Positions 8,815-62,948 of a stretch of DNA of 64,000 nt are shown piece after piece (the stretch's first letter is position 1; each line of letters begins with the position of its first letter). The DNA lies in contig MU831873.1 in NCBI GenBank assembly GCA_029204225.1, positions 35,247 through 99,246 of the forward strand, in the 5' to 3' direction. The notes beneath the pieces were generated by a model. The model was not told the DNA's origin. It made no database searches and saw nothing but the letters and a program-made list of their open reading frames with translations. This DNA is from Diphasiastrum complanatum. Its lineage: Eukaryota > Streptophyta > Lycopodiopsida > Lycopodiales > Lycopodiaceae. A program made the translations under genes and the position numbers.

Positions 8815-9697
8815 AAAATGTAAAAAGGGCCATTGGAAGAGTGAATGTCGCAAATTCTTGGCAGAACAAGACAAGGGAAAACCAAAGCAAGCAGGTAACC
8901 TTGTTGATGAGGGTGAGATTCAAGAATCTAGCATCTTCATATCTGCATTGTCATCTAATCAAGATGATCAAGCATGGTATATTGACTCGGGAGCCACAAG
9001 ACATATGACAGGTAACAAGAATTGGTTCAGTAGCTTGAAAGTGTTGGATAATGGAACATCCATTTCACAAGCAAATGGTGATGTGTGCAAGATCAAGGGG
9101 ATAGGCACTGCTTCAATCCAACTACCTGATGGCAAAAGTAGGATGATCAAGGAGGTACTTTACGTACCAGGTTTGAATAAAAATCTACTTTCTATTGGAG
9201 TCATTACTGATCAAAAGTTGAAAGTAGAATTGGCCCATGATCGTTGCTTTGTGAAGGATTTGAACCAAAAGTTCAAAGTTATTGCGAATGGAGTAAGGGA
9301 GCCCAATACTAAATTGTATAGGTTGAATGCTACAATCAAGGGGCAACATGGACTGGTCACTTGAACTTAGGAAGCCTCAGTTTGATGAGAAAATTGGAGA
9401 TGGTAACAAGATTGACTACCATAGAAGACCACTTGAAATTGATGTGCGAATCATGTGTATATGGGAAGCAGCATCAAGAGAAGTTCAATAAAGGTGGTGT
9501 TACAAGGGCAAAGAACATCCTGGATTTGATCCACACAAATTTATGCAGGCCTATGAGGACTATGTCCTTAGGTAAAGCCTTCTATTTCATGACCTTTATT
9601 GATGAGATGTCACGTAAGACATGGATCTACTTCTTGAAGAAGAAATCGGATGCATTTGACAAGAAAGTTCTCTTCCAAGTTAGATCCAAATTTGGTG
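8815..9697 (+). pseudogene. Copia knuckle remnant, protease and integrase start (element L)
   Basis: The second half of a knuckle (GHWKSEC) is at about 8826-8846. The frame 8858-9364 contains the protease site WYIDSGATRHMTG and a KEVLYVPGLNKNLLS motif. After a frameshift at about 9355, the frame 9361-9705 carries GHLNLGSL and CESCVYGK (HHCC zinc region) and the first integrase Asp context (DLIHTNLC, FMTFIDEMS). The second Asp and the Glu are missing because the sequence ends at the junction with element B. Confidence 0.85.
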
Positions 9698-10190
9698 CTA
9701 GATAGCTTGTTTGAAAGCTAGTTTTGTCTAGTTTTTGTAGCAGTTTGTTTCAATCCATTTGGTAGAGCCAGTCAAAAGTTATAATATTTTTAAGAGGGTT
9801 AGGTAGGGCACCTAGACCTGTTTGATCATATCTTGCTAGTTTGACCAAAAAATTCAAGAAGAGGCTTGCCAATGTCATCTATTTGAAATATAGTCATCAT
9901 TTTGAAGTCATAGCCACTTTCTTTCATACAATGGGCTTGTATTTGAGTCATTTGTGGATTCTTGGAGTGTTTCACATGTGCCAAAGATATTTTGACCCAA
10001 ACTTGTCCTATACTCCATCAATTGATGAGAGGTTGATCTAGTTTGAGAGAGATTGGTAGAGCTAGTGAGACCCATCTCACATTTTGTTGCAAGATCTTGC
10101 ATAGGAGTTGGTAGTACACCTTTCAAGGATCCTGTAGTGAGAGAGAAGCAACATTTATTGTCTCATTACAAGGAGTCTTCACTACTTTTG

Positions 10191-12853
10191 ATGGCATCCA
10201 TGGGTTCCTACCTATTGGAATCTAGTGAAAGACTATTCTATTTGGAAGGTTAGAATGGAGTCAATCTTGATATTCCAAGATGTGATGGACATTGTACTTG
10301 GGATTGAGGAGGAGACTCAATTCCTTCAAGAAGTACAAAAGTATAATAAGAGAGCTAGGATGGCTCTCCATTATATTGAGATGAATGTCTCCAATGAGAT
10401 TTTGAGAGAGATTGGTGCATGCACATCGGCCAAGGATGCTTGGGATACTCTCAAAGCTATTTATGAAGCCAAAAATACCTCTAGGCTCCTCACTCTTAGA
10501 AATGAAATCTTCCAAAGTTCTCAAAAGAGTGATGAGAGTGCCTTAATTATGTTTTGAGAGTGAAAGATATTCATAGGGAGCTTGCTTGTATTGGAGATTC
10601 CATCAAACAAAAGTGAGCTAGTCCAAGTCATACTCAATGGCTTGATGGATGAATATGAGAATCTTGTCCAATCCTATGCTATCAAGGAGGAGCTACCAAC
10701 CTTGGAGGCTTTGCAAGGAGTGCTAATAGCTGAAGAATCAAGGCATGAGAACAAGCTATTAATGATGGACAAATTGTCACTCAATCATAATGGTGATGAC
10801 AAAGTTTTATTTGCCAAGCACAAAGAGAGGAGCAAAAAGCAACACCAACACTTCTCTAAGGACAAAGCAAATAAAACAAGCTATTAATGATGGACAAATT
10901 GTCACTCAATCATAATGGTGATGACAAAGTTTTATTTGCCAAGCACAAAGAGAGGAGCAAAAAGCAACACCAACACTTCTCTAAGGATAAAGATGAAGAG
11001 GATCAGGATTCCTCTCAAGATACTACTTCAAAGAAGAAGAAAAAAGATGTTAAGTGCTTCTTTTGTGGCAAGAAAGACCACTATGCCACCAATTGCTTCA
11101 AGAAGAAGAATCAATTCAAGCAAGCCAACATCTCTCATGAGAAAGAAGACTTTATTGCAAGTGATAGAGAATGCTCACTTATGGCATCAAAATTCTCCTC
11201 TTCCACCTTCAATATGGATGACTCTTGGTATATTGATAGAGGAGCATCTTCACATATGTATAGATCCAAGGATTCCTTTTCATCTATTATGCCTTATGGA
11301 GGAATCAAGAAGTCCATATATATTGCAAGTGATCAAGAGTGCAACATTGAAGGAGTAGGGACTATTCCCTTGAAGCTTGCATCATCAAAAGTTCTATATC
11401 TTCACAAGGTTCTTTTTGTTCCCAAGCTTACAAAGAACCTTTTAAGTGTTGGCCAATTACTTGATAGTGGCCTTGATGTCAATTTCCATATTGACAATTG
11501 TGTGATCAAGAAGGATGGTGCGATCCTTGCACGTGGATCAAGATTTGAAGGCATCTACAAATTGGATCCAAGAGAAAGTTCAAATTCTCTTGATGTTGCT
11601 TAAATGTCCAAGCTTTCTAAGGAGGATGATCACACAAGATGCACATATCTTCTTTCTTCAAGATTTATGGTGCATGATTATTTCCTATTATTCAAAGCAT
11701 ATATTGAGATGTGAAGATTAAAGCTTTTAGGAGTGGTGGAGTTCTTGGAGGAAATACACCATATGAAATATTATTGAAGCCTAAGGTTGATTACCTTAGT
11801 GTGTTTGGAAGTCTTTGCTTTGCACATATTCTCTTGGAAACAAGGAGGAAGAATGATCCAAGCTCATGGATCATGGTTGGATGCTTATCCACCAAGGAGG
11901 CCTTTAAAGCCTTTATACTCTCTATTTCAAAAGTGATTGAGAGTAAAGATGTCATACTTTATGAAGGTCTACATTCAACCTTGGAAGGGGCCGAGATCAA
12001 GGCATCTCAAGATGCATCTCAAATCATATCTATTGAAGACTATCAAGATGTGATGGGGTCAAGGTTTGAGGAGGAGCCTCCTCAACATATGTATTCAAGG
12101 GGATCTTCAAGAGGCAAAGTTGAGTCTTTATGGCTCATTTTTTATGGTAAAGCGAGGCAGGTTTCAGGCGGTATTCACTCCAACATTCTCATTTATGCTT
12201 CTCTTCCATTATTTGATGCACTATCTTGTTGTATTGAGATTTCTACATCTCAAAGTTCAAGAGAGGCAATACTAGTTTTGTATGATGCTTGAAAGGCTTG
12301 TCATGAAAGGATTAGATATGTTTCCAAAGTTCCTTGAAAGCAAGAGATTGTGTTATCAAAAGTATGCTCTTGGATTTTTCAATGCAAGATTGAGTTTGCT
12401 ACTCATAGTTTGAAAATTCATGTTTTTACATGTTTTGAGACAATTTGTAAACTTCTCTTGAGATTAAGTGAAACATCCAAAGAGGACACTTACATCCTTG
12501 AGCAAGTGTTTAGTCTCAAAAAGCTCAAGATTGCATTTCATTTCAAGATTAGATCCATCATGGATAAAGTTCATAGTATATGGACTAGTCAAGCTGGTAT
12601 GCTTAATCTTGAAGATCTACACTTTTGCTCATCTTATGATCTTGATCTCTATGATCTTTGTGATCTTTATGGGGCATGGAAGCCTCTAATTTTCATCATG
12701 GTGCAGCCATCTTCATGGAAATGGTACTTTCAAATCAAAGATCATCATCAAGCATGGAGGAAGCACATGGATATAGTGGCAAAGTGGTGGAATGATGTTC
12801 AAAGGTGTTGACAAATGATTTCTACCAAAAAAATATTATCATGGATTTGGTGA
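10191..12853 (+). pseudogene. Gag-protease-novel domain polyprotein of element B, broken
   Basis: The ATG at 10191 matches the start of the C polyprotein (SYLL..SERL). A small deletion near 10245 shifts the frame. Gag continues through 10225-10557 and 10582-10870. The frame 10887-11603 has the knuckle CFFCGKKDHYATNC and a protease site YIDRGASSH, in which the residue after Asp is Arg. The frame 11711-12292 holds the integrase tail (NTPYEILL, FAHILLETRR) and the start of the novel domain. The frame 12350-12811 holds CKLLLRLSE..KEDTYI, and after a TGA the final LSWIW. Several frameshifts and stops make it a pseudogene. Confidence 0.85.
10751..10992 (+). repeat. 125-bp tandem duplication in gag of element B
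   Basis: ACAAGCTATTAATGATGGAC begins at 10751 and again at 10876. Each copy runs to CTCTAAGGAYAAAG. The second copy restores a long frame that runs through the knuckle. Element C has this segment once. Confidence 0.9.
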
Positions 12854-12875: not shown

Positions 12876-13332
<457 letters not shown>

Positions 13333-15262
13333 ATTTCTTGCATTCGCAAAAATACCTTAAAAATATTTTCTGGAGGGGAGGCCTCGAAAATATCGCAACA
13401 ATCAGCGAATCCTCGTGAAGCCTTCGCAAAAATCGGCACACAAAAATTTTCGCAAAAATCCCAATGCCTTCTCAAAAATACTTCAAAAATTTTCATGTTT
13501 CAAGGTATTTTCACGAGGTCTTTAGAGAAATTTTTTGTGGGCATTGATTTCGTGAAAATTTTGCAAAAATCTCCATGCGCTCGCAAAAATACCTCGAAAC
13601 GTGAAAATTTTTGAGGTATTTTTGCGAAGGCATTGGGATTTTCGCAAACGATTTGTCGATTTTTGCGAAAGTATCGAGAAAATCGGCAAATCCTCGCGAA
13701 GCCTTCGTGACAATCGGCGAATCCTTCGAGTTATTTTTTCAAGGTATTTTCACATTTCTAGTTATTTTCGCGAAGGCATCAAAATTTTCGTTAAATTTTC
13801 GCGAACGGCCTTCAGGGATTTTCACGAATGGCCTTTAGGAAAATTTCGTGAAATTTTGCAAAGGCTTCAGTTATTTTCACGACACTGACCCTCGAAAGAA
13901 AGGCGACACTTGAGGGGGAGGGCCCATGTCGCCAAAATTTCTTGAAATTTCCTTGAAGGTTTCACGAAAATTACTGAAGGCTTCGCGAAAATTTAGCGAA
14001 AATTCCGATGCCCTCGCAAAGATACCTCGAAACGCGAGAATACCTTGAAAATATTTTCTGGAGGAGAGGCCTTAAAAATATCGCGGAAATCGGCAAATCC
14101 TCGTGAAGCCTTCGCGAAAATTGGCAAATTCTTTACGAAATTGGCCCACGAAAAATTTTCGCAAAATTTTTGCAAAAATCCCAATGCATTAGTGAAAATA
14201 CCTCAAAAATTTTCACGTTTCGAGGTACTTTTGCTAGGGCATCGAGATTTTCGCGAAAAAAATTTCATGGGCATTGATTTCATGAAGGCTTTTTCCCAAT
14301 GCCCTCACATTTTTCTTGGGGGGGGCAATGTCGCGAAAATTTTCCTGAAGGTTTCACAAAAATTTTGTGAAAATCACTGAAGGCTACGCGAAAACATTTC
14401 GAAAAATTTTCCTGAAGCCAGTGTCGCATTTACTTCGAGGTATTTTCATGTTTCAAGTTATTTTTGTGAATCGAAATTTTTGTGAAAATTTTGCAAAGCC
14501 TTCAGAGATTTTCACGAACGGCCTTCTTCGTGAAATTTTCGCGAAGGCTTTAGTTATTTTCGCGACACTGACCCTCGAGAAAAAGGCGACACTTGAGGGG
14601 AGGGCCAATGTCGCGAAATTTTCCAAGGAAAATTCATGAAAATTTCTCAAAAATCACTGAAGGCTTCGTGAAATTTTTGCAAAAATCTCGATGCCTTCAC
14701 GAAAATACCTCAAAAAGTTTTGCAAAATTTTCGCAAAAATCCCAATGCCTTCACGAAAATATCTCAAAATTTTTCACATTTTGAGGTATTTTTGCGAGGG
14801 CATCGAGATTTTTGCGAAACCTTCTCAAAAACCTTTCGTGGGCATTGATTTCGCGAAGGTTTCGCGAAAATCCCAATGCCCTCGTGAAAATAACTTGAAA
14901 TGCGAAAATTTTCGCCAAGGTATCAAGATGTTCGTGAAAATTTTTCGTGGGCCAATTTCACGAATGATTCGCCAATTTTCGTCAAAATGTCACAAAAATC
15001 GATGAATCCTCGCGAAAATCAGCGAATCCTTTGCAAAAATACCTCAAAATTTTTTGCATGTCGAGGTATTTTCGCGAGGGCATTGGGATTTTTGCAAAAT
15101 TTTCGCAAAACCTTCGCGAAATCAATGCCCAAGAAAATTTTTTGCAAAGGTTTCACAAAAATCTCGACACCCTTGCAAAAATACTTGGAAACGTGAAAAT
15201 TTTTGAGGTATTTTCACAAAGGCATTGGGATTTATGTGAAAATTTTTGTGGGCCAATTTTTG
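13333..15262. repeat. CpG-rich, hairpin-dense repeat array (~685-bp higher-order unit)
   Basis: The stretch is built from short blocks of TTTTCGCGAAAA, GCAAAAATACCTC, GAGGTATTTTCGC, GGGCATTG and CAATGCCC types in both orientations. A larger unit repeats: TATTTTCTGGAGG occurs at about 13364 and 14052, and ACTGACCCTCGA at 13884 and 14567 (periods 688 and 683). A clear hairpin has arms TCGCAAAAATACCTC (13581-13595) and GAGGTATTTTTGCGA (13613-13627) with a 17-nt loop. Variants recur near 14200, 14755, 15030 and 15176. The many short ORFs are low-complexity Phe/Lys/Ser products and not genes. Confidence 0.85.
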
Positions 15263-20810: not shown

Positions 20811-20815
20811 TTCAT
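20811..20815. repeat. Target-site duplication of element C, left
   Basis: TTCAT directly before the 5' LTR, repeated at 25908-25912 after the 3' LTR. Five bases is the usual LTR-retrotransposon duplication size. Confidence 0.85.
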
Positions 20816-21638
20816 TGTGAGAAATTGGCAAAAATCTAGCTTGGTATTTTTTATGATAGAAGTTTGTAAGTGAATCTCACATGTGTGGAGGATGTTCCCA
20901 CATGTGGAGAATTGTAAAGTAAATAAAAATGTTTGATATAGGGGTCTCATAGAATTTCATAGTCAAACATTTAGGTGTAGGATGTTGATAGGGTCAAATT
21001 TGGCATAGATGGCAAATTATCCATTTCCACTTGTAATGCCACTATTGAGCCAAAATAGAGTAGGAGGTCAAACTTGTGCCAATTAGAGTGTAGACAAGTG
21101 TAATGCTTTTGTTTGATGAAGTTTAAGAGGTCCAATAGGATTTAGAGGTGGAACCATGAGTGGTCCAATAGAATTTGAGGTTTGCTTGAAAATGGTCCAA
21201 TAGAATTTAGAGGTGCATGGATCAATGGTCCAATAGGATTAAGAGGTGGCAAAGTGTGGTCCAATCATAGTTAAGCATAGTTGTAGCTCGTGGATCTACT
21301 AGTATCATTGTACTCCTCATTTGGATCTAATTGATTTTGAGATTGAGTGGATTTTGAGTGTAAGTGATTTTCTAGCTTTCTCTCTCTACTTGAGCCCTAT
21401 TGATGATTTTCTCTCTCTAACCGAGGAGAGCAGCTTGTTTTTACTTATATTACTTTTGGAACACTTCTCACACGTGTGAGTGAGAGTTGGAAGTGATTGA
21501 ATGCATGTAGTAGTGTGTTTTTGCCATAGAATCAAAGATAGATCTTGAACCTCAATCTAGTCTTGATCTTGGTGCATCTACACATCTTAGGAGATCACAA
21601 GTACATGTTGTGGACAGTCCACACGTGTGAAATCAACA
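20816..21638 (+). repeat. 5' LTR of element C
   Basis: It begins TGTGAGAAATTGGCAAAAAT and ends GTGTGAAATCAACA. It matches 25091-25907 along its length; the main differences are a 6-bp insertion near the start and scattered substitutions. It contains the perfect palindrome CTCACACGTGTGAG at 21467-21480 and a second CACACGTGTG near the end. Confidence 0.93.
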
Positions 21639-21651
21639 TGGTATCAGAGCC
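21639..21651 (+). other. Primer-binding site of element C
   Basis: TGGTATCAGAGCC directly after the LTR, complementary to the initiator tRNA-Met 3' end. Confidence 0.9.
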
Positions 21652-22393: not shown

Positions 22394-24967
22394 ATGACTT
22401 CAATGAGTTCATACTTGTTGCAACCAAGTGAGAGATTGTCTACTTCCAATTATTCAATATGGAAGTTGAGGATGGAGTCCATCTTGATACTCCAAGATGT
22501 GATGGACATTGTACTTGGGATTGAGGAGGAGCCTCAAGTCCTTCAAGAAGTACAAAAATACAAGAAGAGAGCTAGGATGGCTCTCCACTACATTAAGATG
22601 AATGTCTCTAATGAGATATTGAGGGAGATTGGTGATTGTTCTACATCCAAGGAAGCTTGGGATTGTCTCAAGTCCATCTATGAGGCTAAGAACGCCTCTA
22701 GGCTCCTCACTCTTAGAAATCAAATCTTCCAAAGTAGTCAAAAGAGTGATGAGAGTGCATCTAATTATGTTTTGAGAGTCAAGGATATTGATAGGGAGCT
22801 TGCATGTATTGGTGACTCAATCAATCAAAGTGAGCTAGTCCAAGTCATTCTCAATGGCTTGAGAGATGAATATGACAACCTTGTCCAATCCTATGCCATT
22901 AAGGAGGAGCTACCAAGTTTGGAGGCCCTTCAAAGTGTGCTTATTTCTGAAGAATCAAGACAAGAGTACAAACTCTTGAGGATGGACAAGCTATCACTCA
23001 ATCATGATGATGGCAAAGTTCTATTTGCCAAGCACAAAGAGAGGAGTAAGAAGAAACACCATCACTTCTCTAATGACAAAGCTAAAGACCAAGATGGAGA
23101 AGAGGAGGATACCTCTCATGCTTCTAGTTCAAATCTCAAGAACAAGAAGATCAAGTGCTTTTATTGTGGCAAGAAAGGCCATTATGGCACCAATTGCTTC
23201 AAGAAGAAGAATCAACTCAATCAAGCCAACATCACCAATGAGAAAGAAGACTATATTGCAAGTGATGGAGAAGGCTCTCTTATGGCATCAAGCTTCTCCT
23301 CTTCCACCTTCAACAAGGATGACTCATGGTATATTGATAGTGGATCATCTTCACATATGTGTGGCTCCAAGCACTCTTTTTCATCTATTATGCCTTATGA
23401 TGGAGTCAAGAAGACCATATACATTGCAAGTAAGCATGAGTGCAATATTGAAAGAGTAGGGATTATTCCCTTGAAGCTTGCATCTTCTAAAGATCTCTTT
23501 CTCAACAATGTTCTTTTTGTCCCAAAGCTTACAAAGAACATCTTAAGTGTTGGCCAACTTCTAGATAGTGGCTTTGATGTCGATTTCAATATTGACAATT
23601 GTGTGACCAAGAAGGATGGTGAGATCCTTGCATATGGATCAAGATTTGAAGGCATCTACAAATTGGATCCAAGTGAGAGTGCAAACTCTCTTGATGTTTC
23701 TTATATGTCCAATATTTCAAAGGAGGATGATCACACAAGATGCACATATCTTCTCTCTTCAAGTATTATGGTGTATGATTATTCCTTATTATTCAAAGCA
23801 TATGTTGAGAAGAAATTCTCATTGAAGATCAAAGCTTTGAGGAGTATTGGAGCTCTTGAAGGAATAGCACCATATGAAGTTTTATTCAAGATGAAGCCTA
23901 AGGTTGATCACCTTAGTGAACTTGGTAGTGCTTGCTTTGCACATATTCTCTTGGAAACAAGGAGGAAGGATGATCCAAGCTCATGGATCATGATTGGATA
24001 CTCATCCATCAAGGAGGCCTTTAGTGTCTTTACACTCTCTATTTCAAAAGTGATTGTGAATAGAGATGTCACATTGCATGAAGATTCAATCTTGGAAGTG
24101 GCTGAGATCAAGGCTTCTCAAGAAGCATCACAAGTTATCTTTTTTGAAGGTATTCAAGTTATGATGGGGCCAATGTGTGAGGAGGAGTTTCTTCTTCATA
24201 TGATTTCAAGAAGATCTTCAAGATGCATGGCTGAGTCTTTATGGCTCAGCTTACATGGAAAAGAGGGGCATCCTTCATGTTGTATCTACTACAACACATT
24301 CATATATGCTTCTCTTCCTTTGCTTGAAATGCTATCTTGCTTCATTGAATTTTTTGGATCTCAAAATTCAAGAAAAGCTATACTAGTTTTGTATGATGCT
24401 TATAATATGGACATGTTTCTTGTCATTATTGACTTAGATGTGTTTCCAATACTTTTTGAAAGCAAGATATTGTATTGTCAAAAGTATGCTCTTGGTTCTA
24501 GTGAGAACAAGATTGAGCTTGTTACTCACTTTTTTGAAAATCATGTTTTCACATGTTTTGAGGCAAATTGTAAACTCCTCTTGAGATTAAGTGAAGCATC
24601 CAAAGTGGACACTTACATCCTTGAGAGAGTAACTAGCCTAAAAAAGATCAAGATAGTCTTTGATATCAAGATTAGATCCATCATGGATATAGTTCATTGT
24701 ATGTGGACTAGTCAAGCTAGAAAGCATAATCTTGATAATCATCATTGTTTCACATCTTATGATCTTGATCTCCATGATCCTTATGAGGCTTGGAAGCCTC
24801 AAATTTCTCTATTTATGGTGCATCCATCATGCAAGTGGAACTTTCAAAGCAAAGATCATCATCAAGCATGGAGGAAGCCCATGATCATAGTGGCATATTG
24901 GTGGAGCACTCTTCAAAGCCATTGGCAAGAGATCTCTACTAAAGAGATCTTATCATGGATATGGTGA
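22394..24967 (+). CDS. Gag-protease-novel domain polyprotein (857 aa) of element C
   Basis: The intact ORF runs from the ATG at 22394 to TGA at 24965. Residues 1-240 are a UBN2-type gag (NYSIWKLRMES, LLTLRNQIFQSS). A CCHC knuckle CFYCGKKGHYGTNC lies at about 254-267 and the protease site DSGSSSHM at about 316. From about 450 to 600 there are integrase pieces (TYLLSSSIMVYD, FKAYVEKKF, APYEVLFKMKPKVDHL, FAHILLETRR), but the HHCC zinc region and the second Asp and Glu of the catalytic triad have been removed by in-frame deletions. Residues 612-857 form a domain I do not recognise: AESLWLSLHGK, SRKAILVLYDA, CKLLLRLSEASKVDTYI and a terminal LSWIW. Gag and protease should act in particle formation; the role of the new domain is unknown. 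Confidence 0.92.
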   Translation: MTSMSSYLLQPSERLSTSNYSIWKLRMESILILQDVMDIVLGIEEEPQVLQEVQKYKKRARMALHYIKMNVSNEILREIGDCSTSKEAWDCLKSIYEAKNASRLLTLRNQIFQSSQKSDESASNYVLRVKDIDRELACIGDSINQSELVQVILNGLRDEYDNLVQSYAIKEELPSLEALQSVLISEESRQEYKLLRMDKLSLNHDDGKVLFAKHKERSKKKHHHFSNDKAKDQDGEEEDTSHASSSNLKNKKIKCFYCGKKGHYGTNCFKKKNQLNQANITNEKEDYIASDGEGSLMASSFSSSTFNKDDSWYIDSGSSSHMCGSKHSFSSIMPYDGVKKTIYIASKHECNIERVGIIPLKLASSKDLFLNNVLFVPKLTKNILSVGQLLDSGFDVDFNIDNCVTKKDGEILAYGSRFEGIYKLDPSESANSLDVSYMSNISKEDDHTRCTYLLSSSIMVYDYSLLFKAYVEKKFSLKIKALRSIGALEGIAPYEVLFKMKPKVDHLSELGSACFAHILLETRRKDDPSSWIMIGYSSIKEAFSVFTLSISKVIVNRDVTLHEDSILEVAEIKASQEASQVIFFEGIQVMMGPMCEEEFLLHMISRRSSRCMAESLWLSLHGKEGHPSCCIYYNTFIYASLPLLEMLSCFIEFFGSQNSRKAILVLYDAYNMDMFLVIIDLDVFPILFESKILYCQKYALGSSENKIELVTHFFENHVFTCFEANCKLLLRLSEASKVDTYILERVTSLKKIKIVFDIKIRSIMDIVHCMWTSQARKHNLDNHHCFTSYDLDLHDPYEAWKPQISLFMVHPSCKWNFQSKDHHQAWRKPMIIVAYWWSTLQSHWQEISTKEILSWIW

Positions 24968-25090: not shown

Positions 25091-25907
25091 TGTGAGGCAA
25101 AAATCTAGCTTGGTATTTTTTATGATAGAAGTTTGTAAGTGAATTTCACTTGTGTGGAGGATGTTCAAACGTGTGGAGAATTGTAAAGTAAATAAAAATG
25201 TTTGATATAGGGGTCTCATAGAATTTCATAGTCAAGCATTTAGGTGTAGGATGTTGATAGGGTCAAATTTGGCATAGATGGCAAATTATCCATTTCCACT
25301 TGTAATGCCACTATTGAGCCAAAATAGAGTAGGAGGTCAAACTTGTGCCAATTAGAGTGTAGACAAGTGTAATGCTTCTGTTTGATGAAGTTTAAGAGTT
25401 CCAATAGGATTTAGAGGTGGAACCATGAGTGATCCAATAGAATTTGAGGTTTGCTTGAAAATGGTCCAATAGAATTTAGAGGTGCATGGATCAATGTTCC
25501 AATAGGATTAAGAGGTGGCAAAGTGTGGTCCAATCATAGTTAAGCATAGTGGTAGCTCGTGGATCTACTAGTATCATTGTACTCCTCATTTGGATCTAAT
25601 TGATTTTGAAATTGAGTGGATTTTGAGTGTAAGTGATTTTCTAGCTTTCTCTCTCTACCCAAGACCTATTGATGATTTTCTCTCTCTACCCGAGGAGAGC
25701 AGCTTGTTTTTACTTAGATTACTTTTGGAACACTTCTCACACATGTGAGTGAGAGTTGGAAGTGATTGAATGCATGTAGTAGTGTGTTTTTGCCATAGAA
25801 TCAAAGACACATCTTGAATCTCAATCTAGTCTTGATCTTGGTGCATCTACACACCTTAGGAGATCACAAGTACATGTTGTGGACAGTCCACACGTGTGAA
25901 ACCAACA
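25091..25907 (+). repeat. 3' LTR of element C
   Basis: It begins TGTGAGGCAAAAATCTAG and ends GTGTGAAACCAACA, 817 bp. In this copy the first palindrome reads CTCACACATGTGAG, one base changed from the 5' LTR. Confidence 0.93.
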
Positions 25908-25912
25908 TTCAT
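25908..25912. repeat. Target-site duplication of element C, right
   Basis: TTCAT, identical to 20811-20815. Confidence 0.85.
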
Positions 25913-46549: not shown

Positions 46550-46718
46550 CAGAAAGTACACTTACCTTCAATTAATGATTGTTCTTGTTAGGATTTTGTG
46601 TCTAGAATTGATCTAGATTGATCTTAATCTGAAGTAGATTGATAGATCAAGTAATCTGACAACCAATCCCTCTTGAGGATCAGATTAGGATTCACTCTTG
46701 GTCCTTTTTGTACTTTTT
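46550..46718. repeat. 169-bp direct repeat, left copy
   Basis: CAGAAAGTACACTTACC...TTTTTGTACTTTTT. It matches 51026-51194 with one mismatch in 169 bp. It sits exactly before the primer-binding site of element G. Confidence 0.92.
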
Positions 46719-46737: not shown

Positions 46738-48396
46738 TAGTACAAGAGTTTTTGTTGAAATTGATAGGGTTAATCCAAATCAAAGCCAAAATTAGCAGTT
46801 TTTTGGAAAGTAGTCAAATTTTGTGTAGCGAGTTAGATTTGATAGCTATCCTCAAAATTTTTGGTCCAGATCTTGTTGTGGGCTGTAGGAACCCTTTTTA
46901 CACGTGTGAGGCCGTACAGCCCCGGTTTTGACTAAGAAATTTCAGAAATTTGTAGAATTTGACTCACATACCCAATTTGAGTGATTTTTGGTGCAAAATC
47001 AAGCATTTTCTATAGAGAATCTAATCCCTTGATTAGTTCTTGGATTAGATCAGCCAAAAAATTAAAATTGAAGTTTGAATTAGGTGCATTAATTGATCTT
47101 CTCTTATTTTTTGAGTGTATGTTGAAGTTAAGAGAGATTTTGCTAAAAATCATAGATTAAGGAGTGATATGCAAGGTGAGAGGTTGAAATCCATTGTACC
47201 ATCACTCTAGATTTGTTCAAGAGTGATAGGGTCAAGTTTAGAAGCATCAATTTGCTAGAAAACATCTTTGGATTTGTTCTCCAAGTGAAACCTTTGAGAG
47301 TTTCTAGTGCATATAGAGCATCTATGCAAATCTTTTGTAGAATTTGACATAGATTGGCTTCAATTGAGAGTTCTAGAAAAGAGATTGAGATCCAAGTCAC
47401 ATTATTCAATCCTACTCAATTTGTTTGAGTGTTTGTGAGGTTTGAAAAGAGTCATTAAGGTGTCTATGGCAAATGTATAGAGAGAGATCCAATTTTCTAA
47501 GAGTTCCTTCCTTTGTAGAAGGCAAGATCTAGAAGCTCATTTTGTGTTGTTATTGGTGGAAAATTTGTATTCTCCTAGGTGATCAAATCTTTCTAAGTGG
47601 CATTAGCTCTTTGAAGCACAATATCTTAGTGAGAAAAGTCACAACTTTTGATTTTGAATTTCATTCCAAGTCTTAAAAGGTAGAGTAATTGGTGGAATCC
47701 AATAGGGCTGATTGAATCAATTTATTGAGCAAAAATTGACATAGTATGTATGAAACTCAAATTAGTTCTATTCAACTTTCTTTGTGAGAGTGTGAGGGTT
47801 AATTTGAGATCTCATTGGATGTCTAGAATGAGGAGTCCATATTTGAGTATTCATGCATGGTTGAGATCTTTGTGAATCTCTAGTTGTCTAATTTGTTAAG
47901 CTTTGTGAAAATTGGTGGTATAGTTTGTTGTCAAATCAAATCAAATTCATTCTAAATCTCAAGTGTGAGATTATTTGGGTCAAGAGTGAGTCCAAAAGAA
48001 GTGATTAAGTTTGATTTTCATGTATTTGAAACAAAACCCACCTTTTGTTCAAGAACCTTAAGTGTTGAGAGAACTAGTCAAGTGAAAAGGAAAATCTAGG
48101 TGTCAAATCTTTTTCATATCCATTTCAATTTTCAAAAGGAAGAGTCATTGGTATTTGATGAGTCCAATAGGAGATTGGATCTGATTTCTTTAGTTATTTG
48201 ATTCAAAGATTGTGTGCTTTTGTCTTAGTGATCAAAGCAAAGTTTCCAAGTGACTAGTCATTACTGTGAAGATTGATTCTTAGGTTTGTGAGCTAAATCT
48301 TTTGTAGATCCTTCTAGATTGTTGAAGATGTTCAAATCTAGTCTCTTGAAAGTCACAAATTACATTTGTAGAATCATATCACAGTTTTTTATTCAC
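46738..48396 (+). other. Leader of element G
   Basis: AT-rich, no supported ORF. CACGTGTGAG occurs at 46901-46910, as in the LTRs of this lineage. Confidence 0.5.
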
Positions 48397-50229
48397 ATGG
48401 CATCAATAGGTGGCATCCTATTGAAGGAAGGAAAGGATCCTGAGTGCAACCTTTGTGGCAAGGGAGGATATTTTTTCTCAAGATGCTACAAAAAGAAGAC
48501 CAATCCATCCAAGGAGAACCAAAGCAAGGGGGCCGAAGTGAAGGATGGAACTTTAAGTTCAAAATGCAAATACAAGAAGGACAAGTTCAAGGAAAGGTGT
48601 TTCCTTTGTGGAAAGGTGAATGAGGCTTGGAGTCTCACAAGGACTTGCAACATTTGTCTTCAAGAGTCCATCACAACACATGTCAAATCTTTTGAAATTT
48701 TTCATTTGGAAGTGCATTGTTTGGTTCAAGATGCAAAGATAGATGTCACTTTCATGAAAGTAACTTGGATTTATCTTATGTCCTTGGAAAGTATTTTGCT
48801 TGGAACTTTGGACAAGTTCAAACTTATTGTTATTATCCAAAAGAAATCAATCAAGAATAAGGAGCAATCACAAAACAAAAATAGTTTCATTTATGCTCTC
48901 ATGTCAACTTATGAAAAACCATTTTGCTTTGAAGAGATTTTTGTATCTCAAAGGTGGATTAAGGCAATACTAGTTGAGTATGATGCCTTGAAAGATAGCA
49001 AAATATGTTTTCCTTGTAAGCTTACATTAGTTATGAAGTCAAGGAAATGGAAATATCTTCATAATGTAGGATCTTTTGGTTTCAATAAGATCATGAATGA
49101 TGTGTTCATTCATAAAGATGAAAATTGTAAGTTTTCAATCTTAAAGACAAGTTGTAAACTTCTTATGAGAATAAGTGAAACATTCAAAGTGGACACTTAT
49201 ATCCATAAGCAAGTAGTTAGCCTTATTAAGATGGAAATACCTTGTGATTTCAATATTGGAAAAATCATGCCAAGTTGTGGTGATTTTTGGACTTATGTTT
49301 CTAGCATAAGTAATCTTGATAATCATAGGAAGTGAATATTGAATGGTCATACTTGTTGTGATCATTATGAGACATGGAGGTCTCGGATTTTCATCAAGAA
49401 GGAGCATCACGAAGAAGATCTTAAGGAGTCATCTCAAGGTTCAAGTGTGCCAAGGATTGAGGAGGAGAGACCTTTTCAAATTGTGATTTCAAAAAGAAAC
49501 TCAAGAAATATGGGTGAGTCCATGTGGCTCACATTTCAAGGGAAAGAGGAGCATATCTCATGTGGTATACATCTCATACTTACTTCTCTTATGTCATTTG
49601 ATAAATCAATTTGCTTTAGTGAGATCATTGCATCTCCAAAATGGAGTAAAGCCATACTAATTGAGTATGAAGTTTCTCTTGAGAACATAGATGATGTTCT
49701 TAAAAGGTTGAAATTGATTTTAAATCAATTAGAAAGCAAATGGTTATTTCATCAAATGTATGCTCTTGAGTCATGTAAGAGCAAAAGTGATTTGTTTACT
49801 CATAGTTTGAAAATTTGTATTAAGGCAAATTGTAAATTCTTTATGAGAGTAAGTGAATCATCTTTTAAAGACACTTATCTCCATAATGAAGTATTTAGCC
49901 TCATTGGATCTGAGATTAGCATGGTAAACAAGCATGAAGATATGATGCAAACACTTTGTTATTATAGCATGCATAGTCTTGCCAATCTGGATAAGTCTAA
50001 TTCTCTAGATCATGGTAACATGATGTTAGATCTTTGTGATACTAATAAGTCAAGAAGAAATCTTTGTTTTCTCATGGAGGAGCATGCACATGAAGAAGGA
50101 GCAAGTCTCAAAGTCAAGCATCTACATGAAATTTGGAAGGAATCAATTTCGAAGATGCTAGGATGGTGCAAAGCTCTCAAGTTCATCAAAGATGTCAACA
50201 TCAGAGAAGCATTATCATGGATATGGTGA
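48397..50229 (+). pseudogene. Knuckle plus two tandem novel domains (element G), one in-frame stop
   Basis: The ATG at 48397 opens MASIGGILL, like the starts of B and C, but the gag body is deleted and the reading goes straight to knuckle-like sequence CNLCGKGGYFFSRC, where His is replaced by Tyr. A second, disrupted knuckle follows (CFLCGK). Domain copy 1 (about 48870-49335) contains CFEEIFVSQRWIKAILVEYD and CKLLMRISETFKVDTYI. A TGA at 49333 is the only stop. Copy 2 (about 49505-50229) contains GESMWLTFQGK, SPKWSKAILIEYE, CKFFMRVSE...KDTYLH and ends ALSWIW. The frame is open for 611 codons except for that one stop, which suggests a recent loss or read-through. Function unknown. Confidence 0.75.
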
Positions 50230-50366: not shown

Positions 50367-51027
50367 TGTGAAAAATGCAAAAATAAGCTTGGTAGAGGCC
50401 AAAAATCTTGTATATAGATAAACACACATGTGTGGAGCCTGTTCCCACGTGTGAAAATAGTGTACTTGTCATGTACCATAATCATATAGGTTGTACATAT
50501 GATTTAATTCAAGTTCTAGTGGCTAAAAAGGCCAAAAACTAGTTGTCTAGACATATGACACATGGCATCAATCTATTGATTGCATGAGCCACATCCTTTG
50601 GTTAGGTGTCATATACCATGTGTAGAGGACAGCTCACATGTGTGAAATAAGCTGAAGTAGGCAAATTTTGACTTCTAGAAGATTTTCAAGTAGATCTCCA
50701 TATAGAAGAAAAATGGACCAAAAGTGCTCAAAATAGAAGGTTTTGTCCAATTGTCAGTTTTGCATGATGAATCATCATATGACAAAGCACCTTCACACAT
50801 GTGGGATCATAGGGATGATCAGTACCACGAGCTCCCACTTATTGTATATATAGAGCCACATTTGGCCATAATCAATGTGAGACACAAATCTTGGTTTTGG
50901 AAGCAATTTTGAGTGATTCTCTCCATTTGTCTACATTTGTTTTTGATTGTTTTGAGGTTCTATCAATGTGTACTTGATTTTCAGGTTGGAGTCCATACTT
51001 AGACAGTGTTTCACACGTGTGAAACCA
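50367..51027 (+). repeat. 3' LTR of element G
   Basis: Starts TGTGAAAAATGCAAAAATAA. It contains CACATGTGTGGAGCCTGTTC and CCACGTGTGA, which parallel the LTR of C. It ends near the 16-bp perfect palindrome TTTCACACGTGTGAAA (51009-51024). The end is inferred by comparison with C, because no second LTR is present. Confidence 0.7.
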
Positions 51028-51194
51028 GAAAGTACACTTACCTTCAATTAATGATTGTTCTTGTTAGGATTTTGTGTCTAGAATTGATCTAGATTGATCT
51101 TAATCTGAAGTAGATTGATAGATCAAGTAATCTGACAACCAATCCCTCTTGAGGATCAGATTAGGATCCACTCTTGGTCCTTTTTGTACTTTTT
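51026..51194. repeat. 169-bp direct repeat, right copy
   Basis: Second copy of 46550-46718, one mismatch (GGATCCACTC against GGATTCACTC). It overlaps the end of the minus-strand ORF described next. Confidence 0.92.
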
Positions 51195-56296: not shown

Positions 56297-56776
56297 AACA
56301 CACTTCACCTACCACCAATTGGCTTTGACTAATTAATCAAACTTAGGAACTTAAGTTTAAGCTTAACTTTGGCCTTCTACTATAATTTTTTATTACATGG
56401 CCCAAAGTCAAGTTTATGCCCAAAATTATTTATTTAAAAGTGCTCATTGAGCCATGGGCTTATACATGCAGGATGCCACAATCCTCGCAACTATTTCTAT
56501 TTTTCTGACTTTATTTATTTACAACATGTTGGGAATAACACACTTCACCTACCACCAATTGGCTTTGACTAATTAATCAAACTTAGGAACTTAAGTTTAA
56601 GCTTAACTTTGGCCTTCTACTATAATTTTTTATTACATGGCCCAAAGTCAAGTTTATGCCCAAAATTATTTATTTAAAAGTGCTCATTGGGCCATGGGCT
56701 TATACATGCAGGATGCCACAATCCTCGCAACTATTTCTATTTTTCTGACTTTATTTATTTACAACATGTTGGGAAT
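56297..56776. repeat. Recent 240-bp tandem duplication
   Basis: AACACACTTCACCTACCACC starts at 56297 and at 56537. The two copies appear to differ at one position (ATTGAGCC against ATTGGGCC), so the duplication is young. Confidence 0.92.
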
Positions 56777-61250: not shown

Positions 61251-61444
61251 ATCCTCGAGTCCTCCCTCAAGCAAACCGTCTCCTTAAGATCTCTAAATAG
61301 GGCTTGCGTTGTTGACCCATCCCTTCGTGTGGATGAATTCCTTGCTGCCTCCAACTAGCTCAAAGAACAAGGTCCAATATGGCCTAAAATAACTGACAAA
61401 CTTATGAGTGTGAGGGTGTAGAGAGTGAAAGAGAGGATTCATCA
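61251..61444. other. Unassigned spacer
   Basis: Joins the LINE-like fragment to element J. A GAGAGTGAAAGAGAGGATTC tract precedes the first protease codons. Confidence 0.4.
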
Positions 61445-62866
61445 ATGATGTCTACTTTTTCATCTTTCCCTTTTAAGAATGAAGAAGTCTGGTGGATAGA
61501 TAGTGGAGCTAGTTCCCACATGTCTAGTTCTAGGAACTCTTTCACTAATCTCATGCCATATTTAGGTGCAAAAAGGTCAATCTATACTGCTAATGATGTA
61601 GAGTGTAGGATTGAAGGAATATGTAGTATTCCATTACATGCATCATCATCAAAATTTTTTTGCTACCTAAATTGACTAAGAATCTCATTAGTGTAGGACA
61701 GTTGTTTGATAGTGGATTGGATGTCAAGTTTCAAGTTGAGTGTATAATCTCAAGAGAAAATGAAGTTATTGCTAGAGGATCTAGAATTGGTAAGTTGTAC
61801 AAACTAGATTCTAGGGAGAGTGCTAATATTTCAGATATTGCTTATGAGACCAAGTTTCTACAGGAGGATCTGCGGCATAAGAGATTGGGTCATCCCAATT
61901 TCAAATCCATGCAATCTATGGTCAAAGAAGAAAAAGCTGTTGGTCTACCAAAGACTTGTCAAAGGAGCTTCTACCTTGTGAAGCTTGTGTGCTGGCAAAG
62001 TCACACAAAAGGCCTTTTCCTAGATCAAGTATCAAGACAAAGCAACCATTTGAACTTGTACACTCAGATGTTCATTTCTCATCAACTAAGAGCAAAGGAG
62101 GAGCCAACTGCTTTGTCTCTTTTGTAGATGATTATACAAGACATTATTGGATCTATATGTTGTCTTCAAAATCCATGGTTTATGATGTTTTTCTTACTTT
62201 TAAAGCTTATGTAGAGAAGCAGTTTCCTTTCAAGATAAAAGCTTTAAGAAGTGATAGTGGAGAGAATACATTTCCAATAAGTTTAAAGACTTTTGTGAGA
62301 GAGAGGGTATTCAAAAAGAGTTTTCTTGTTCATATACTCCTCAGCAAAATGGAGTTGCTGAGAGAAAAAATAGAACTTTGTGTGAATGTGCAAAAGCCAT
62401 TAGGCTGGAAGCTTCTCCGCCTAAAGAATTTTGGGGAGAGGCAGTTGCATGTGCAAACTATCTTTGTAATAGGCTTCCAAATCTTGCAATAGGAGGAAAG
62501 ACACCATTTGAGATGTTGTAAATGAAAAAGCCTAAGGTAGATCATCTTAGGATTTTTGGCTGTGTATGCTTTGTGCATGTACCTATAGAAACTAGGAAGA
62601 AGGAAGATCCTAGTGCAGTGAAAGGAATTTTTGTAGGTTATGTATCTACTAAAAAATCATACAAGATTTATTTGCCCTCTATTTGACAAAAATGTTGTTA
62701 GTAGAGATGAAGTCTTCCATGAAGATCAAAAATTTAACTTGGATGATGTCCAGATCAAAGAGACTCATGCAAGTTCAATCATCAACCTTGATGTTGTTCA
62801 AGAAGAGGTGAGGCCGAGGCTTGAGGAGGAGCAGATTCAAGCTATCACACCAAGAAGACCTACATG
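61445..62866 (+). pseudogene. Copia protease and integrase (element J), frameshifted
   Basis: Protease: WWIDSGASSHMSSSR, LPKLTKNLISVGQLFDSGLD. Integrase HHCC: LRHKRLGHPNF and, after a shift, CEACVLAKSHKRPF. Core: LVHSDVHFSS and FVDDYTRHYWIYML (61956-62492 frame), RSDSGENTF for the second Asp, and NGVAERKNRTL for the Glu in another frame near 62345. The end has KKPKVDHLRIFGCVCFVHVP and VSRDEVFHED. At least four frameshifts. The C polyprotein keeps only short parts of this region. Confidence 0.85.
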
Positions 62867-62948
62867 AGTTATTAAAATATTATCTTCCTATCTCGAGTTT
62901 GGGATCATGACCATGATAATTTCCACTAGTTGTTGTACATATAAGGAG

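Follow-up and report, generated by a model that had tools for sequence, protein, structure and literature searches.

Non-autonomous retrotransposons whose only coding region is gag are already known. Athila elements are of the Gypsy type. Pol-less Athila families of Arabidopsis are described as non-autonomous, long diverged, provided with intact ORFs, and dependent on enzymes from other families, and purifying selection was reported for the Athila Gag and Env ORFs (PMC2410132). In case of the Copia type, AT5TE33540 of ATCOPIA63 is described as an element with one gag-bearing ORF and without reverse transcriptase (RT), which transposes in Arabidopsis ddm1 and for which a related autonomous element is thought to supply functions (PMC8704663). 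In the genome analysed here, the persistence of long, seemingly useless frames in such elements becomes testable. It contains families (C, G, and B-like) that are related to each other at various depths, and gag provides an internal control; selection for an open frame is therefore separable from selection on the protein. The window, i.e., the whole stretch of 64 kb that was analysed, is part of contig C355 of an assembly of 1.74 Gb in 5176 contigs; the features of element C and of its relatives B, G, and H are given in Table 1.

Structure of Element C

Element C is a Ty1/Copia LTR retrotransposon, as given by its LTRs, primer-binding site, target-site duplication, and copia-type gag and protease. 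The LTR pair is 97% identical, with 24 differences over 813 aligned nt. As originally predicted, one intact ORF of 857 codons was found, which comprises gag, a zinc knuckle, protease, an integrase remnant, and a tail of ~250 residues, for which neither Pfam nor PDB gave a match. The protease region contains a DSG motif. Compared with the frames of H, most of the integrase core is missing by deletion. A Pfam search of the 857 codons revealed neither an RT nor an RNase H family, and no Pfam family matched residues 566-857.

Table 1. Features of element C and of related elements within the window.
Feature	Position	Strand	Basis or remark
Target-site duplication TTCAT, left	20811..20815	.	same 5 bp as 25908-25912
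C 5' LTR	20816..21638	+	ends TGTGA...ACA
C primer-binding site TGGTATCAGAGC	21639..21650	+	identical 12 bases 3' of the G and L030 LTRs
C single ORF, 857 codons, one frame	22394..24967	+	ORF list
C gag (Retrotran_gag_2)	22472..22966	+	Pfam, residues 27-191, E 5e-28
C CCHC zinc knuckle	23150..23200	+	Pfam below cut-off (18.1 vs 20.8 bits), residues 253-269
C protease region (Pol_BBD)	23327..23575	+	Pfam, residues 312-394, E 4e-21
C integrase-end SH3-like remnant (SH3_retrovirus)	23888..24088	+	Pfam, residues 499-565, E 4e-12
C tail part 1, putative decayed integrase-RT junction and RT start	24209..24490	+	hhalign, DNA profile
C tail part 2, origin without match	24491..24964	+	no RT/RNase H resemblance, no Pfam or PDB match
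C 3' LTR	25091..25907	+	starts 123 nt 3' of the stop codon
Target-site duplication TTCAT, right	25908..25912	.	5-bp copy of 20811-20815
B, degenerate relative	9666..12853	+	tail about 12110-12853
G frame	48319..50229	+	comprises a knuckle-like part and tail copies G1 and G2; gag absent
Tail copy G1	48880..49413	+	tblastn
Tail copy G2	49426..50226	+	tblastn
H, related element	61404..62948	+	RT-RNase H deleted, no tail; LTR from 62949

Relatives in the Window and in the Host Genome

The predicted recurrence of the tail in B and twice in G was recovered by tblastn. The C tail matches B at 11981-12850, G1 with 36% amino acid identity (E 2e-19), and G2 with 32% amino acid identity (E 2e-26), and the rest of the 64-kb window contains no tail match better than E 0.3. 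The presence of two tail copies in G stands, except that the start assumed for the second copy (49505) is out of frame, the frame of G2 being 49339-50229, and that both copies belong to a single G frame broken by one TGA at 49333-49335. A gag match is absent from the G frame in the Pfam search. The terminus LSWIW is common to C, B, and G2.

The tail of B is interrupted by in-frame TGA codons at 12290 and 12809 and by frameshifting deletions. B has no 5' LTR, and its leader starts at ~9666, directly within another Copia element (8822-9700, with a protease-like ORF at 8858-9364); it appears to be chimeric, composed of two elements. The 5' LTR of G (46550-46718) is reduced to its last ~170 bases, which share 99% identity with the terminal part of the 3' LTR (51026-51194). 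Near-identical counterparts of C, G, B, and H are each located on contig C21 at ~2.41-2.47 Mb; this points to a second haplotype or to a duplicated assembly. Further repeats of the window are two head-to-tail copies of 240 nt (56297-56776, 99.6-100% identical) and a cluster of dense inverted and direct repeats with 65-87% identity around TTCGCGAA-rich sequence (13345-15246), which is adjoined by a long CT run (12878-13031).

In the host genome, at least 150 copies were obtained with the C tail as query (best 150 of 11,534 first-look candidates), all at least 95% identical and 146 of them stop-free. The G2 query gave at least 144 copies with 90-100% identity (best 144 of 21,894 candidates), and the B piece at least 150 copies with 72-100% identity (best 150 of 10,233 candidates). 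These copy numbers are lower bounds, because scoring covers the best candidates only, and some of the matches appear to represent one locus duplicated on two contigs. An LTR lineage without RT-RNase H that carries a shared, uncharacterised open tail, as had been proposed, is present in many copies. LTR pairs could be used for dating in 15 C copies; the divergence between both LTRs is 0.2-2.2% in 12 of them and 4.4, 11.9, and 15.1% in the remaining three, with one LTR matched partially in case of the two highest values. The C family was recently active.

Origin of the Tail

With the integrase of H as genome query, the elements L029 and L030 were obtained, which possess gag-protease, integrase, RT, and RNase H, lack the full tail, and are both disrupted by stops or frameshifts. 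Their gag-protease shares 57% identity with that of C over residues 6-445 and 59% over residues 1-313. The integrase-RT linker and RT start of both elements can be aligned with the beginning of the tail, e.g., 'RQVEGETSCHALSISDEEPKDVQEAFQSKEWVEAMTQEFEAL' of RT with 'RQVSGGIHSNIFSHASLSLLDVPSCFYEVSTSHSWSEVM' of a B-like copy and 'FIYALMSTYEKPFCFEEIFVSQRWIKAILVEYDAL' of G1.

Comparison of a profile of 16 tails with the two RT starts by hhalign gave a score of 31.0 (E 6e-4), and the match is located where it would be expected. The probability assigned by the program itself is 29% in this comparison and 22-29% for the RT match overall. None of 300 column shuffles reached this score (maximum 26.8), and the reversed profile scored 12.7. 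Control scores were 11-13 for L029 (integrase, RNase H, and pieces from further along RT) and 12-14 for C (gag, protease with 12.2, and knuckle-protease with 12.1); the integrase remnant of C gave no score. With the linker removed on both sides, a score of 24.9 was obtained, which was matched by none of 200 shuffles (maximum 21.5); in the strictest comparison, with L029 alone as template and tail residues 19-111 without linker, the score was 17.3 and was equalled by one of 200 shuffles. G1 and G2 alone scored 24.6 against the RT start (0 of 200 shuffles). In case of the B-like rows alone, the RT start is not the best match; another RT motif, CKWVFRIKYNH, scored highest, near the tail end, and barely exceeded the shuffles (28.2 vs 28.1). 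A DNA profile of 19 tails matches the integrase-RT junction of L030 (E 7e-9) and of L029 (E 4e-5), both matches taking in the true integrase linker, and the RT ORF of L029 is the best non-self match among 1920 ORFs (E 8e-4).

Since the alignment places the first ~95 residues of the tail at the junction of integrase and RT and at the RT start, RT seems to have been eroded in place and not replaced. The original prediction of a domain in place of RT is at odds with this resemblance, which appears in both the protein and the DNA profile and stays short of a Pfam RT match. A putative RT-start origin of tail part 1 is supported, not proven, and two of the four blocks ascribed to the supposed domain, (A/G)ES(L/M)WL..GK and KAIL..YDA, are very probably RT leftovers. 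The profile match to a known RT, named beforehand as a result that would speak against a novel domain, was obtained, short of a Pfam match, for the first ~95 residues and not for residues 112-265. In the latter, an RT or RNase H origin was rejected because 64 of 100 shuffles scored equally or better against RT (KARL to palm), and 91 of 100 against RNase H.

A source of the last ~150 residues, which include the blocks CK..SE..DTY and LSWIW, was not found. The C tail alone matched no Pfam family, and its best PDB chain has an E value of 0.36. The 16 tail copies searched singly against Pfam gave nothing useful, RT included (PGAP1_3rd in one member, E 0.052), and the same holds for the 16-row tail profile against PDB. 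A terpene-synthase match of a piece of B (E 0.015) was judged to be noise. One scan of viral contigs with tail alignment A2 resulted in 23 pattern matches, none of which was confirmed. A comparable tail was not found in a literature search, which proves no absence.

Residues 112-265 might represent a fragment captured from a host gene or another foreign source and inserted into the RT region. The lack of RT or RNase H resemblance in this part would agree with such a capture, as would an RT-like motif (CKWYFQIKDHH vs CKWVFRIKYNH of RT; 24.4 vs a shuffle maximum of 20.7) which occurs again near the tail end, as if flanking an insertion. However, the motif comprises just 11-14 residues and was not used as evidence, and Pfam and PDB give no source. 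We regard a capture as improbable. A host source could not appear in the genome searches, because the best copies alone were scored.

Maintenance of the Open Frame

The C tail contains no stop in 249 codons, where 7% stops per codon would be expected from the base composition, and the other two forward frames of the same region contain 10 and 28 stops. The open frame of the C tail is not due to chance. C and G2 differ at ~40% of sites and are both open; at this distance, 13-14 stops are expected under neutrality and none of 2000 simulations was stop-free. The observed in-frame stops are 0 in C, 0 in G2, and 1 in G1. In eight G-family copies, the frame extends without a stop through at least 631-633 codons; since an open frame was the criterion by which the G copies and B-like copies were chosen, their stop counts are biased towards low values.

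Five of the 19 gag-picked copies with tail sequence have stops in the tail. Together with the two stops and frameshifts of B and with omega values near 1 in several sets (see below), this would be in agreement with a dead sequence, whose open frames reflect young copies or similarity-based picking. The comparison of C and G2 contradicts this explanation unless both frames were re-opened, and we consider it very unlikely.

The distance from the frame end to the LTR is 123 nt in C, 137 nt in G, and 81 nt in H, and in L029 the end of RNase H is located 106 nt before the LTR start, as placed by alignment to H. The contents of these four elements differ, and the distance of the frame end is similar (81-137 nt).

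Selection on the Tail Residues

Differences at codon positions 1/2/3 amount to 102/94/105 for C-G2, 70/71/76 for C-G1, and 73/62/70 for G1-G2, and a significant third-position excess was observed in none of six tail comparisons. Gag, protease, integrase, and SH3 served as controls, in which differences are most frequent at the third codon position in 13 of 13 comparisons, significantly so in 11. One further row, which crosses a frame break, was left out. Maximum-likelihood omega of the tail pairs in the window is 0.68, 0.68, and 0.72 (p 0.08-0.31 against 1), of which the value of 0.68 for C-G2 lies within the simulated neutral range. For C-B, omega is 0.57 in the tail (p 0.015), 0.12 in gag, 0.49 in knuckle-protease, and 1.14 in integrase plus linker. 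Controls from other elements gave 0.02-0.28 in eight of nine cases and 0.61 in one; several control values are rough due to saturated branch lengths. In simulations of 40 runs each, an omega of 1 was recovered as 0.64-1.14 and an omega of 0.5 as 0.38-0.63. A dN/dS near 1, the other outcome named beforehand as contrary to a selected domain, was approached with 0.57-0.72 in the window, which is near and not a clean 1.

Conservative changes exceed the neutral simulation in G1-G2 (2 of 200 simulations as high) and do not in C-G2 (64 of 200) and C-G1 (186 of 200). The assumption of mostly conservative changes, as in selected coding sequence, could not be upheld: the codon positions diverge equally, and a conservative excess is found in one of three pairs. 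In each of the three pairs, identity is distributed more patchily than in the neutral simulation (7, 0, and 4 of 200 simulations).

In the genome sets, the median omega of C vs 15 B-like copies is 0.65, and that of 28 pairs among eight of these copies 0.86; 36 G-family pairs have an omega of 0.60 with a third-position share of 0.40. From 20 gag-picked C copies, 14 were used (L056, L060, L066, L067, and L073, incomplete, and L069, without tail, were dropped), and their tail omega is 0.57 vs C and 0.93 among themselves (bootstrap 0.65-1.59). Of 19 tail-picked C copies, four (L010, L012, L021, and L028) were left out because their alignment was bad or partial. The gag omega of the other 15 is 0.43 (0.32-0.65); dN/dS of their tails (0.46 vs C, 0.34 among copies) was set aside as biased.

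The third-position excess and low omega of a protein domain under ordinary purifying selection were not observed in the tail; the open frame was. We read these values as an indication that the tail residues are probably under weak, patchy constraint. Omega is below 1 in most sets and identity is patchy, and room is therefore left for a constrained protein. The tail may be a functional accessory segment, i.e., a fast-evolving C-terminal extension of Gag with few critical residues, which in G would be a separate product and which would bind RNA or partner enzymes. The open frames of C and G2, the patchiness beyond neutral simulation, the invariant residues in tail alignments A2 and A3, and the shared LSWIW end are in line with this explanation, but the equal divergence of codon positions between C and G, which gag, protease, and integrase of similar identity do not show, the lack of conservative enrichment in two of three pairs, and the omega of 0.93 among gag-picked copies are not; we regard such a protein as possible but rather doubtful.

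For the knuckle-protease region of the C family (23114-23713), dN/dS is 1.21 vs C and 1.02 among copies, which were selected by tail similarity, and gag is constrained. The protease of the C family may be dispensable, too.

Proposed Mode of Persistence

We tentatively favour the explanation that C represents a gag-bearing non-autonomous Copia family that is mobilised by H-like elements and whose tail is mainly kept as an open translated frame. C would then form, with B and G, a large non-autonomous Ty1/Copia lineage. C would make its own Gag, and autonomous relatives of the H/L029 kind would provide it with RT, RNase H, and integrase. We infer trans-mobilisation of C by H-like elements from sequence features, and it fits the primer site and the boundary of GGAG and TGTGA, both of which are common to C and elements of the H/L029 kind.

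The 3' third of C would accordingly be an eroded frame and not a new enzyme. RT was probably cut and decayed in place, leaving the first ~95 residues recognisable, followed by ~150 residues without a known source, with the frame staying open up to the short interval before the 3' LTR. Selection would act mainly on a frame that is translatable to its end, by which ribosomes are kept on the RNA and the 3' UTR is kept short, resulting in less decay or silencing; on the residues themselves it would be weak and patchy. If 3' UTRs are abnormally long, nonsense-mediated decay can set in, plants included, with mixed transcriptome-wide support (PMC6173133). In Arabidopsis, translation of a Copia RNA can itself trigger silencing (PMC8892269). 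We infer an RNA-level reason for the open frame. It is conceivable, albeit unlikely in our view, that the lineage is selected for the frame being translated and not for the product, with stops being purged and residues drifting almost freely. If true, the genomic RNA would thereby escape decay or translation-linked silencing, and the most extreme example would be the G family, in which ~630 codons are open and gag is absent.

Comparison with Known Systems

Similar to AT5TE33540 of ATCOPIA63 (PMC8704663), C has one gag-bearing ORF and no RT; it differs in keeping protease and integrase remnants as well as a tail of ~250 residues, and in having a sister family, G, with a doubled tail and lost gag. 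With respect to TR-GAG elements (PMC8704663), C has a gag ORF between LTRs and no RT, but not gag alone, since its ORF adds the protease region, the SH3 remnant, and the tail. The C lineage resembles the pol-less Athila families (PMC2410132) as a likely parasite with kept ORFs, whereas its tail, unlike Athila Gag and Env, appears weakly constrained. In comparison to Copia RT (RVT_2), the first ~95 residues of the tail align with the RT start of autonomous relatives, but the remaining RT including the catalytic palm is gone from the tail, and a Pfam match is absent from every member. As a warning, where pol-less elements share an unknown domain, part of it may be a worn-down polymerase. Judged from sequence comparison, the lineage appears distinct from both TR-GAG and Athila by its long tail, in part RT-like and in part unexplained, and by the G sister family, in which this tail is doubled and gag is lost.
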